NCBI GenBank assembly: GCA_028699215.1
Contig: JAQVVB010000003.1
Location: 1-36,478, forward strand
Origin: Sphaerochaeta sp.
Lineage (GTDB): Bacteria > Spirochaetota > Spirochaetia > Sphaerochaetales > Sphaerochaetaceae
Direction: 5' to 3'
Length of the DNA stretch: 36,478 bases
The notes beneath the pieces are model-generated. The model was not told where the DNA came from, made no database searches, and saw only the letters and a program-made list of their open reading frames with translations. The position numbers were made by a program, and so were the translations under genes. Below are positions 30,354-36,478 of this stretch, piece by piece (the stretch's first letter is position 1; every line of letters starts with the position of its first letter).

Positions 30354-31367
30354 CTATTTCTGGCTGATTTTCTGACCGTTCTTGATAAGCATGGCTGCTC
30401 CATCCTGCAGTGACTGCGGAATAGTATAACCAAGCTTCTTGGCGGTATCAAGATTAAACCAGAGTTCAAATTTGGTAGGATCGGTGATATAGACGGTTCC
30501 AATATCCCCAGCAGCAGTTCCCTTGAGAACTTTTTCAACTACTTTACCGGTTTCAACTCCGATGCTGTAGTAGTCGAAGCCCCAGGCGATCATGGCTTCA
30601 AGACCATCGATACCTGATGGATCTGCACTGAAGAGTACCTTTCCAGCTTTGCTGGTGACATCGTCAACAGAAGCGATTGCACTGATTACCGCGTTGTCTG
30701 TAGCAATATAAATTGCATCGACACGTCCGATGATGGATTGGGCGGCCATTTTCACTTCACTTGAGTTGCTGATTGCAGAGCTGACGAATTTTACACCCAG
30801 TTTTTCACAGGCTGCCTTTGCCATTTCCATGAGTACGACACCGTTTGCCTCTCCAGAAGCATAGATATTACCAATGGTTTTAGCTCCGGTAAGGTCTATC
30901 AGGAGTTTGATCTGTTCTTCAACAGGATTCTTATCGGAAACTCCACTGATATTAGCTGCTACCAGACCTGCTTCATCAGCATCGGTTACGGCACTGAAGA
31001 TGACGGGGATGGAAGAGGAAACAGGAAAAACCTGGGCAAGGGCTTGTGCTGAAGGAGTTGCAATACCCACTGCTACATCAACTTTGTCGCTCTTGAATTT
31101 TTGGGCGATTGAAGAGGCTGTGGAGATGTCTCCATTTGCATTCTGAAGATCAAAGGTAACGGCAAGGTCCGTGGTCGCAAGATAATCCATCATACCCTTT
31201 TCTGCTGCATCGAGTGCAGGGTGGGCAAGAAGTTTGGATACACCTACCTTATACGTGCGAGGACCAGTGGTCACTGGGGCTTCAGCTGCTCCGGCAGCGA
31301 AAACCGGTGTGGATAAGGTCGCAATCGATGCAAGCAACAGGATTGCTGTTCTAAGTGAATGTTTCAT
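30354..31367 (-). CDS. ABC transporter substrate-binding protein (ABC_sub_bind-like, PF04392-type)
   Basis: Signal peptide MKHSLRTAILLLASIATLSTPVFAAGAAEA; YKVGVSKLLAHPALDAAEKGMMDYL, GIATPSAQALAQ. GGAGG SD. Heads the permease/ATPase operon. Confidence 0.9.
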   Translation of the reverse strand: MKHSLRTAILLLASIATLSTPVFAAGAAEAPVTTGPRTYKVGVSKLLAHPALDAAEKGMMDYLATTDLAVTFDLQNANGDISTASSIAQKFKSDKVDVAVGIATPSAQALAQVFPVSSSIPVIFSAVTDADEAGLVAANISGVSDKNPVEEQIKLLIDLTGAKTIGNIYASGEANGVVLMEMAKAACEKLGVKFVSSAISNSSEVKMAAQSIIGRVDAIYIATDNAVISAIASVDDVTSKAGKVLFSADPSGIDGLEAMIAWGFDYYSIGVETGKVVEKVLKGTAAGDIGTVYITDPTKFELWFNLDTAKKLGYTIPQSLQDGAAMLIKNGQKISQK

Positions 31368-31407
31368 GTGATTTTCCTCCAATCATGGAATCCTTTCGTT
31401 TTGCGAA

Positions 31408-32714: not shown

Positions 32715-33713
32715 TTACTGTTTGATCACCCGCTTTTCTCCATGTTCTACGAGGACTGAAGCAGCCTGCAACAGATCTTCGTCAATGGTGATGCCCAGTT
32801 TCTTTGCAGAATCAAGATTGAACCATAGTTCAAACTGGGAGGGGTCGTTGAAGAAAATGGCGCCGATATCCTTGGGCTTTTCCCCTTTGAGGATTCTTTC
32901 TACGACTTTACCGGTCTCAATGCCTACCGTATAGTAGTTGAAGCCCCAGCTCATCAAGAAATCAATGCCTTCGCTGCTGGTGGTGTCGGTGTTGAAGAGG
33001 GGAATTCCTGCTTTATCGCATACTTCACTGACGCTGGTGATGGCACTAACCACCGTATTGTCGATTGCCACATACATTCCGTCGACTCGATTGATGATGG
33101 ACTGGGCGGCCATTTTCACTTCACTGGAGTTGCTGATGGCTGCGGCGACAAACTCAACCCCGTTTTTCTTGCAGATTTCTCTTGCAAGTTCCATCATGGC
33201 CACTCCATTGGCTTCACTGCTGGTGTAGATCATTCCCAGGCTTTTGGGCTTGATGATGGAAAAATAGGTTTCAAGCTGAAGCTCAATTGGATTCAAATCG
33301 GAAATGCCTGCAATGTTGGTGTCTTCTGTTTTGTCGTAATTGGCTAGCAGTCCTGCCGCCAAGGGGTCGGTGATGGCACCGAATACCACAGGTTTTGTGG
33401 TGATGACCTGTGCAAGGGCTTGTGCTGGAGGAGTCGCAATCCCTATTACGATGTCCTTGTCGTCGCTCTTGAATTTCTGGGCTATGGCGATTGCCGTTGC
33501 TATTTCGGCATTACAATTCTGCAAGTCATAGGTTGCTTTGATACCGGTGGAATCGAGATAATCGATGATCCCCTGTTCGATTGCATCCAAAGCGGGGTGA
33601 GCCACCATTTTGGATATTCCGATGGATACGGTTTCTGGGTTTGTTTCTTTTGCAGGTTGGGCGAACAATAGGGCAGGAAGCAACAACAACGTGAGGATGC
33701 AAATCTTTTTCAT
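32715..33713 (-). CDS. Second ABC transporter substrate-binding protein, paralogue of 30354-31367
   Basis: Signal peptide MKKICILTLLLLPALLFAQPAKE; VSIGISKMVAHPALDAIEQGIIDYL, AISNSSEVKMAAQSII and FELWFNLD.AKKLG shared with the 30354-31367 product. AAGGAG SD. Confidence 0.9.
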   Translation of the reverse strand: MKKICILTLLLLPALLFAQPAKETNPETVSIGISKMVAHPALDAIEQGIIDYLDSTGIKATYDLQNCNAEIATAIAIAQKFKSDDKDIVIGIATPPAQALAQVITTKPVVFGAITDPLAAGLLANYDKTEDTNIAGISDLNPIELQLETYFSIIKPKSLGMIYTSSEANGVAMMELAREICKKNGVEFVAAAISNSSEVKMAAQSIINRVDGMYVAIDNTVVSAITSVSEVCDKAGIPLFNTDTTSSEGIDFLMSWGFNYYTVGIETGKVVERILKGEKPKDIGAIFFNDPSQFELWFNLDSAKKLGITIDEDLLQAASVLVEHGEKRVIKQ

Positions 33714-33767: not shown

Positions 33768-33813
33768 GTATCTATCTAAAGAAACATGATTTTTTTTCAT
33801 TTATTTGGGTATG

Positions 33814-33840
33814 AAAAAAGCCCCCAAAAAAGGAGGCTTT
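33814..33840 (-). terminator. Rho-independent terminator of the hyperacidic protein gene
   Basis: Minus strand AAAGCCTCC-TTTTTT-GGGGGCTTT followed by TTTC. Confidence 0.75.
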
Positions 33841-33860
33841 GTACTGCTTGTGACAAGTGC

Positions 33861-34130
33861 TTACAAGTCTTCGTCCAAGTCATCGAATTCATCGTCATCA
33901 AAGAACTCGTCTTCGAACGATTCGTCGCCTTCGACCATGAATCCATCATCAAGAAGTTCATCATCCTCTTCATCGTCTTCGATGATTTCATCGTCGTCGT
34001 CGCTGAATTCAATTACTTCCGGAGCATCGTATATGTCAGCTAATAAAGCATCTTCTTCATCTTCCAGTTCGCTGAAATAACGATCTTCTTCATCATCGAG
34101 GTCTTCGTCTTCCTCACGGAATTTTGCCAT
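33861..34130 (-). CDS. Hyperacidic small protein of unknown function (89 aa)
   Basis: MAKFREEDEDLDDEEDRYFSELEDEEDALLADIYDAPEVIEFSDDDDEIIEDDEEDDELLDDGFMVEGDESFEDEFFDDDEFDDLDEDL; 50 D/E by count. AAGGAG SD 9 nt upstream of ATG, promoter TTGACA-17-TATGTT, terminator downstream. Confidence 0.82.
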   Translation of the reverse strand: MAKFREEDEDLDDEEDRYFSELEDEEDALLADIYDAPEVIEFSDDDDEIIEDDEEDDELLDDGFMVEGDESFEDEFFDDDEFDDLDEDL

Positions 34131-34168
34131 GCCGGTACTCCTTAAAAACGTCTCTTCCCTATGTCTAC

Positions 34169-34197
34169 AACATAAGAGAAGCTTATCCACTTGTCAA
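34169..34197 (-). promoter_or_regulatory. Strong sigma70-type promoter of the hyperacidic protein gene
   Basis: Minus strand TTGACA (34192-34197), 17-bp spacer, TATGTT (34169-34174). Confidence 0.7.
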
Positions 34198-34270: not shown

Positions 34271-35299
34271 ATGAAAGAAGAACCTATCTATTTGGCACTT
34301 CCCATGGGCGATCCCGCAGGTATTGGTCCTGAGATCATACTCAAGATGATTGATTCCCATGCTACTCCCTTTTCAGTTGCTTTGGTTGTTGTCGGCGATG
34401 CTTCTCTTTTTAGGAAAACATCGAGTGATCTTTACCTTCCTTTCACTTTCGATGCCGTCGTTGAAAACGAGGCGGACCTTCTTGAAGCAAAAGAAGAAGG
34501 GAAGCGTTGTATCCTCTATGACATGCACACAGTTGATCTCTCCTGTTTTGCATACGGAGCGATAAGCGCCATGTGTGGAAAGGCAGCTTTTGATGCAGTG
34601 AAACTCTGTGTCGAACTTGTGGAGAAAGGTATGTGCAAGGCAGTAGTGACTCCTCCTTTACATAAGGAAGCCCTCAAGGCTGCAAACATATCCCATATCG
34701 GGTATACGGAAATCCTTTCGGATTTGAGTTCTACCAAGAACGCCGTTACGATGTTCGATACCTTGGGGTTGAAGATTTTCTTTCATACTAGGCATCTTTC
34801 ACTTCGTGATGCTTGCAAAGCGGTTACCAAGGAAAGTCTGCTCAAGACCATTCTTTCCTGTGATGCCATAACGAAGAGTTCCCAAGCGTTTGATATGCAG
34901 CTTCCCCTTGTGGTTGCCGGGCTCAATCCCCATTGTGGGGAACATGGGCTTTTTGGCGACGAAGAGCAGACAGCCATTGAACCTGCCGTTTTTGAGGCGA
35001 GAAGGCTGGGGGTTGAAGTCGTTGGTCCTGTAGGTGCTGACTCTGTCTTTTATCAGACGAGGATGGGCAAGTATAGGGCGGTGATCTCCCTGTATCACGA
35101 CCAAGGTCATATTGCAGCAAAAACGCTTGATTTCAATCAGACCATTTCCATTACCTGGAATCTTCCTTTCTTGCGGACGAGTGTAGATCATGGAACGGCT
35201 TTCGATATAGCCGGAAAGGGTGTTGCCGACAGCCAAGGAATGGTGCGAGCCGTTCTTGTCGCATCAGAGTATCTTGCCAAAGGGGACATGTATCAATGA
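34271..35299 (+). CDS. pdxA: 4-hydroxythreonine-4-phosphate dehydrogenase family (PdxA)
   Basis: LPMGDPAGIGPEIILKM, VTPPLHKEALKAANISHIGYTEIL, AGLNPHCGEHGLFGDEE, ALYHDQGHIAAKTL-type motif, SVDHGTAFDIAGKG. Start at MKEEPIYLALP. Confidence 0.93.
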   Translation: MKEEPIYLALPMGDPAGIGPEIILKMIDSHATPFSVALVVVGDASLFRKTSSDLYLPFTFDAVVENEADLLEAKEEGKRCILYDMHTVDLSCFAYGAISAMCGKAAFDAVKLCVELVEKGMCKAVVTPPLHKEALKAANISHIGYTEILSDLSSTKNAVTMFDTLGLKIFFHTRHLSLRDACKAVTKESLLKTILSCDAITKSSQAFDMQLPLVVAGLNPHCGEHGLFGDEEQTAIEPAVFEARRLGVEVVGPVGADSVFYQTRMGKYRAVISLYHDQGHIAAKTLDFNQTISITWNLPFLRTSVDHGTAFDIAGKGVADSQGMVRAVLVASEYLAKGDMYQ

Positions 35300-36478
35300 A
35301 TATGAAACGAATTACGTTGGGTTTAGTCGTAGCAGGCCTGCTGTTTTTATCTTCCTGTGCAACCACGGTGCAGGTTCGCCATCTGATTCCTTCTGAGGTG
35401 AATCTCAGTGGGTATAGAACGATCGCCGTTGCTTCGACTGACTCCTATCGGTTCCCCTTTGGTAGGCCGGTGAGTCCTTGGATCCGGGGTCTGAACGAGA
35501 CTTCATTCAGTTTGACCAGCGGATATGCCAATGATCTTTCCAACCAGGTAGCTGATCTGGGCAGTCGGTATCTTACGCAAACACTCATGGATACTGATTA
35601 TTTTACGATTTTAGGACCTGATCTTACCGATGCCTATCTTACCCTTTCTTCAAGTGGGGAGGATTCGCTTTCCTTGTTGAAGGCAAAAGGAGTACAGGCA
35701 ATCCTAAGAAGTTCAATAACCTACATGGGATGTGACGAATCCATTTATGGAAGAGACAAGAAGACCTGGGTGAGCGAGAGTCTTGATCCTTTAAAGCCAA
35801 CTGTATTGACTTCCTATGAAAAGGTCACAGGAAGGGATTACTACCTTTTGCAGAAAGCAACCGTGACTTTCACCTATACGTTGATGGATATCGAGACAGG
35901 GAAAATCGTCACCACCAAATCCTTTACCGATCAGAGGGACAGGGAGACGCTCATAGGCCGAAGGACCTATGAAGATCAAGAGGGGTCGAGTTCCCGATTT
36001 AGCGACGAACGCATCTATGCAAGTGGATTTGCTCCTTCGTTTGTATCCCTTTTTGACAGGATGCTGGATGGTTTCCAGAATGAGATTTCCCATCAGCTCG
36101 CCCCTTCCTGGCAGACGTTCTCTGTTTCCCTCATGTCCAACAAACCTAAGGTTGATGCTGTGAAGCAGGCCTATGAACTGTCCGAGGCGGGGTCGCTTCA
36201 GAAAGCATACTCACTGTTCTTGGGACAATGGAATCAGAGCGGACATGTTCCCAGTGGGTATAATGCTGCTCTTCTCTTGGAAGCTCAAGGAGACTTGGAA
36301 GAAGCTGTCGACTTGATGAACGAGGTGTACAACTTCAGTGGGAACTCCAAGGCCCGGTCTCAATTTTTACGCATGCAAAAGGCTCTCTCTGATCAGATAA
36401 AAGCAGAAAAGCAGTTTTCTGGAGATGTATCCAGTGGAGATGAGTTTATGGTCATGACCCAGTTCTATACCGTGGAGT
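35296..36478 (+). CDS. Lipoprotein of unknown function with tetratricopeptide-like C-terminal segment; truncated by window edge
   Basis: Not in the ORF track because it runs off the edge. ATG at 35296 overlaps the pdxA stop (ATGA). My translation reads MNMKRITLGLVVAGLLFLSSCATTVQVRHLIPSEVNLSGYRTIAVAST...AYELSEAGSLQKAYSLFLGQWNQSGHVPSGYNAALLLEAQGDLEEAVDLMNEVYN; lipobox LSSC. Confidence 0.82.
   Translation, partial: MNMKRITLGLVVAGLLFLSSCATTVQVRHLIPSEVNLSGYRTIAVASTDSYRFPFGRPVSPWIRGLNETSFSLTSGYANDLSNQVADLGSRYLTQTLMDTDYFTILGPDLTDAYLTLSSSGEDSLSLLKAKGVQAILRSSITYMGCDESIYGRDKKTWVSESLDPLKPTVLTSYEKVTGRDYYLLQKATVTFTYTLMDIETGKIVTTKSFTDQRDRETLIGRRTYEDQEGSSSRFSDERIYASGFAPSFVSLFDRMLDGFQNEISHQLAPSWQTFSVSLMSNKPKVDAVKQAYELSEAGSLQKAYSLFLGQWNQSGHVPSGYNAALLLEAQGDLEEAVDLMNEVYNFSGNSKARSQFLRMQKALSDQIKAEKQFSGDVSSGDEFMVMTQFYTVE

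Follow-up and report, generated by a model that had tools for sequence, protein, structure and literature searches.

The closest described counterpart of the protein considered here is the acidic C-terminal region of the RNA polymerase subunit delta from B. subtilis, a disordered stretch of 83 aa (residues 91-173) that carries a net charge of -47 and a basic N-terminal stretch (PMC7749165). DNA and RNA bound to RNA polymerase are displaced by delta, and also by an excess of its tail alone (PMC7749165). Region 1.1 of sigma-70 forms, together with its linker, a further acidic segment of the main channel of the same enzyme. Very negative charge and small size are also found in the DNA mimics Ocr, gp5.9 and SPO1 Gp44. 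Known bacterial DNA mimics mostly have compact folds. A last point of comparison is SSB, whose C-terminal tip is acidic (DDDxPF-type).

The present work deals with a hyperacidic protein of 89 aa, MAKFREEDEDLDDEEDRYFSELEDEEDALLADIYDAPEVIEFSDDDDEIIEDDEEDDELLDDGFMVEGDESFEDEFFDDDEFDDLDEDL, encoded in a window of 36,478 nucleotides, i.e. the whole stretch of Sphaerochaeta sp. DNA that was analysed. The coordinates of the gene, its signals and its neighbours are collected in Table 1. The protein is a member of a real, unnamed and lineage-specific hyperacidic family, which has an anatomy similar to that of known polyanionic tails and does not belong to the delta family. In literature searches on Sphaerochaeta and on hyperacidic proteins, this protein was not found to be reported.

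Table 1. Positions of the hyperacidic gene, its signals, its conserved boxes and its neighbours in the window
Feature	Position	Strand	Remarks
Hyperacidic 89-aa protein, CDS	33861..34130	-	ATG at 34130, stop 33861-33863; 50 D/E, 3 K/R, net -47; orthologues; dN/dS
Sigma-70 promoter TTGACA-17-TATGTT	34169..34197	-	TTGACA 34197-34192, TATGTT 34174-34169
Shine-Dalgarno AAGGAG	34138..34143	-	7 nt 5' of the ATG; conserved across the genus
N-box EEDRYF, residues 14-19	34074..34091	-	Alignments
Central box DAPEVIEF, residues 35-42	34005..34028	-	Variants elsewhere in the family
C-box ELLDDGFMVEGDESFED, residues 58-74	33909..33959	-	Family form D-L-x-D-G-F-[FYM]-x-D-D-E
Intrinsic terminator, hairpin then T run	33811..33840	-	Hairpin 33840-33817
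ABC transporter substrate-binding protein, next gene downstream	32715..33713	-	PF04392; own promoter-like site
pdxA, divergent neighbour	34271..35299	+	PF04166
Lipoprotein, constant divergent anchor of the locus	35299..36477, runs off the window	+	Matches no Pfam family

The gene and its signals

The initial annotation had described a stand-alone, monocistronic gene with a Shine-Dalgarno sequence, a strong promoter signal and its own terminator, and had rejected the idea of a chance low-complexity frame. Recounting the composition of the product (28 D and 22 E; 1 K and 2 R; calculated pI ~4.05) gave the same figures, the Shine-Dalgarno sequence and the promoter were both recovered, and the terminator hairpin has a folding energy of -14.3 kcal/mol (z = -3.0). 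Besides, the best 60-aa stretch of the product contains 35 D/E residues, against 15 in the runner-up open frame of the window. A chance ORF or a frame artefact is ruled out by the orthologues, which keep the frame, by dN/dS, and by the promoter and the terminator. Since the gene possesses its own promoter, Shine-Dalgarno sequence and terminator, since pdxA is divergent, and since the downstream PF04392 gene has a promoter-like site of its own, the gene is, by its signals, in all appearance monocistronic.

Conservation and selection within Sphaerochaeta

Orthologues are present, in one copy each and with 61-81% identity, in 21 other Sphaerochaeta genomes, Sphaerochaeta halotolerans being among the named relatives, and the start, the Shine-Dalgarno sequence, the promoter and the reading frame are kept in all 21. 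Four Sphaerochaeta genomes are devoid of the gene, all of them incomplete assemblies with a completeness of 80-85%. Among these, G021 has a readable slot occupied by unrelated transporter genes, and a true loss is therefore likely in this congener.

The gene is under purifying selection, with a median dN/dS of 0.082 (Nei-Gojobori, 53 pairs); for the 18 pairs available for both genes, dN/dS amounts to 0.039 for the hyperacidic gene versus 0.059 for pdxA, these values being rough because dS is near saturation in many pairs, yet far from 1. Since the checks on orthologues, terminator and dN/dS, by which the initial annotation proposed to judge the frame, all turned out favourable, the gene can be considered real. 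At GAN codons, the ratio of synonymous changes to D-E swaps is 1.28, compared to 4.91 at the GAN codons of pdxA, with the transition/transversion ratio of 0.55 at pdxA 4-fold sites serving as neutral reference. D/E swaps are thus freer than in the enzyme and less free than at neutral sites, the charge itself being strongly guarded. Such an intermediate tolerance would be expected with charge as the main selected property. The family provides a clean case of selection on a low-complexity acidic protein.

Distribution across the Sphaerochaetaceae

With iterated profiles, members were recovered from several further Sphaerochaetaceae genera and not beyond the family, and most relatives are missed. 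Homology searches largely fail on this family, since conservation is limited to charge, a small number of aromatic boxes, the promoter and the slot. The slot upstream of the lipoprotein gene, taken as anchor, was therefore read in 40 further genomes, and a hyperacidic ORF was found in 18 of the 22 Sphaerochaetaceae genera, counting a copy truncated at a contig end in genus g20. No hyperacidic ORF occupies the slot in genera g19 and g25; genera g24 and g38 were not scorable, their contigs ending there. In most genera the slot ORFs encode 75-130 aa, many with little alignable identity, and distant members are called orthologous on slot, charge, boxes and promoter jointly, not on identity alone. 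In genus g27 the slot ORF is acidic and shrunken to ~50 aa; it adjoins a shortened, diverged pdxA-like gene. Since the slot lacks the hyperacidic gene in G021 as well as in part of the g18 and g27 genomes, the gene cannot be strictly essential.

The signals are also found across the family. A promoter of the form TTGAC[AGT]-16/18-TAnnnT is present in 49 of 57 loci, covering 16 of 17 genera (0.46 loci expected from shuffles), and a hairpin with a T run follows the stop codon in 36 of the 57 orthologues (0.7 expected from shuffles). Among the orthologous promoters, the -35 element is a near invariant TTGACA and the -10 element is suboptimal and variable (TATGTT, TACTGT, TATCCT, TAATGT). A variable, suboptimal -10 at an otherwise strong promoter may reflect regulation.

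Beyond the family, no acidic ORF was found upstream of the lipoprotein gene in 19 genomes of other families (20 loci, up to 4.4 kb), and profiles run more widely, over phylum and class, yielded no convincing member outside Sphaerochaetaceae among the sampled Spirochaetota. Two matches were inspected and discarded: the one in G377 lies within a larger frame containing a stop, no acidic ORF being seen on reading the place, and the one in G114 lies inside a 464-aa frame. The initial annotation had proposed testing synteny with pdxA across Sphaerochaetaceae and Treponemataceae. This synteny exists within the Sphaerochaetaceae, but pdxA is absent from the slot in some of their genera. The neighbour that stays constant is the lipoprotein gene situated beyond pdxA, which 134 of the 139 genomes of the order possess. 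Nothing comparable was found at the equivalent locus in the other families of the class. As to the window protein itself, it has no Pfam match (E up to 1) and belongs to no NCBIfam or PHROGs family. The only matches to PDB sequences are low-complexity ones to flavodoxin, at E 0.36 or worse.

Anatomy of the protein

In 33 representatives, the median length is 90 aa, the median net charge -47 (range -31 to -66) and the median aromatic (FYW) content 13.5%. The start of the chain is basic, 59 of the 126 K/R residues falling within residues 2-9 (11 expected), in 30 of the 33 proteins. The N-box form [DEN][RKQ][YF][YF] occurs in 17 of the 33 representatives (1.4 expected) and the C-box form DGF-[FYM]-x-D-D in 25 (3.7 expected from shuffles), an excess that is descriptive since the patterns had been drawn up after inspection of the alignments. 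Genera g23 and g37 display the central box variants DAPEVISF, DAPDVIRF and DAPDVSDY. Finally, 18 of the 33 representatives have F, Y or W as their last residue versus 4.4 expected from composition (23 versus 7.2 for FYWLI), with ends such as FDIDF, FDVDF, PFDF and SDDDF; the terminus is DEDL in the window protein, and R, S, N or D in genera g23, g30 and g31.

AlphaFold2 models the window protein with one helix at residues 4-35 (pLDDT ~85) and low confidence elsewhere (mean pLDDT 67.6, pTM 0.29), which suggests that most of the chain is disordered. The earlier statement that there is no recognisable globular domain is thus correct in that neither a Pfam domain nor a fold is predicted, but the chain is not featureless, given its aromatic boxes and basic start.

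A candidate polyanion of RNA polymerase

Among the functions considered, that of a polyanion of the RNA polymerase channel ranks first on circumstantial support: with a probability of roughly one in three (0.35), the protein would be a free-standing, disordered polyanion acting on RNA polymerase in the manner of the delta acidic tail. The comparison with this tail, drawn in the initial annotation together with the lack of the folded domain, agrees with the present data. The hyperacidic protein is similar in length and charge (89 aa and -47 versus 83 aa and -47), in its basic N-terminal end and in being, by prediction, mostly unfolded. It differs in being devoid of the HARE-HTH folded domain and in carrying conserved aromatic boxes, and no sequence homology is claimed. 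HARE-HTH (PF05066) is moreover absent from 24 of the 24 Sphaerochaeta-genus genomes searched, the controls being positive.

The family RpoD has to be considered in this context. In all Sphaerochaetaceae genera that could be read, the part N-terminal to region 1.2 comprises 147-232 aa (115 in one case) with a net charge of -47 to -68; in four outside spirochaete genomes, the same part comprises 87-143 aa with a net charge of -9 to -36. The hyperacidic extension sits between regions 1.1 and 1.2. The acidity around the RNA polymerase channel has thus changed in the clade that carries the hyperacidic protein. Nevertheless, as the extension and the hyperacidic protein both mark one clade, their co-occurrence amounts to a single evolutionary coincidence and not to a correlation, which is why the RNA polymerase reading is kept at the above probability. 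The protein itself recalls sigma-70 region 1.1 and its linker as an acidic segment of the main channel, in a family whose RpoD is hyperacidic; unlike region 1.1, it has a gene and a promoter to itself and no Sigma70_r1_1 match. DLLDD occurs in the RpoD linker as well as in the C-box, a resemblance that was set aside as likely due to composition.

What we infer concerns the disorder of most of the chain, the expression level of the protein, its binding to RNA polymerase and its mechanism. The chain of ~90 residues and -47 would insert into the DNA/RNA channel of the core enzyme, which is positively charged, and compete there with nucleic acid already bound or with the sigma region 1.1 acidic segment, a competition that would promote nucleic-acid release and recycling of the enzyme. 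The aromatic boxes (EExRYF, DLLDDGFxxDD) would anchor the chain on RNA polymerase and thereby replace the folded N-terminal domain of delta. This reading is favoured because of the match in length and charge, the K/R-rich start, the absence of delta, the acidic RpoD, the selection on charge, the conserved promoter and the AlphaFold2 model. Against it stand the lack of a folded anchor, the co-occurrence in a single clade, the dispensability of the gene in some genomes and the reduction to ~50 aa in g27. Besides, such polyanions are likely to associate with a wide range of basic partners in vitro. A broader proposal, by which Sphaerochaetaceae transcription would use a delta tail without delta, coevolved with the hyperacidic RpoD extension, so that a separate disordered protein would control nucleic-acid release, is rather unlikely. 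Studies of RNA polymerase recycling have used delta, a subunit with two domains; if the hyperacidic protein does act on RNA polymerase, it would allow one to ask, in a simple natural system, whether recycling can be driven by a polyanionic chain with no folded anchor.

Alternative functions

Close behind the RNA polymerase reading, although itself doubtful, comes a role as nucleic-acid mimic or acidic chaperone of another basic protein, such as an HU-type nucleoid protein, a ribosomal protein or a nuclease, whose basic surface would be masked by the acidic chain while the aromatic residues dock, in the way acidic histone chaperones work in eukaryotes. The aromatic-rich chain with its conserved boxes fits such a role, as does a stand-alone gene with strong expression signals, but the locus contains no gene for a basic partner (pdxA, the lipoprotein and the ABC transporter only), and no compact fold of the kind common among known mimics is predicted in the low-confidence AlphaFold2 model. 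The resemblance to Ocr, gp5.9 and Gp44 is partial: these are phage-encoded or compact inhibitors, whereas the hyperacidic gene is chromosomal, vertically kept and without a PHROGs match.

The excess of aromatic last residues, at the end of an acidic tail, could alternatively point to a peptide that docks, or acts as a decoy, in the pockets receiving the SSB C-terminal tip. This is improbable, since the aromatic end is not universal (Leu in the window protein) and the internal boxes would be left unexplained; unlike SSB, the protein has neither an OB fold nor an IPF motif, and its last residue varies. Equally improbable is a counter-ion or a cation/polyamine buffer, in which bulk charge would be the function and any partners incidental: the net charge is kept despite sequence drift, D/E exchange is partly tolerated and the promoter is strong, but the conserved aromatic boxes and the low dN/dS exceed what mere charge requires, a 90-aa protein is costly as a buffer and no ion regulation is visible. 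Finally, a joint role with the divergent lipoprotein or the envelope is very improbable, for although the lipoprotein gene is the constant divergent neighbour throughout the family and the only partner kept in most loci, the sequence of the hyperacidic protein shows no signal peptide, the lipoprotein is present in other families without the acidic gene and divergent orientation does not imply joint function.

Genomic neighbourhood

The lipoprotein is found in many other families of the Spirochaetia as well, and its C-terminal part looks TPR-like by eye. On the other side of the hyperacidic gene, a PF04392 substrate-binding gene also lies downstream in several other genera. In the window, two related PF04392 proteins are encoded on the minus strand, the one listed in Table 1 and another at 30354-31382; they flank a Gfo/Idh/MocA oxidoreductase gene on the plus strand, and permease and ATPase genes follow downstream.
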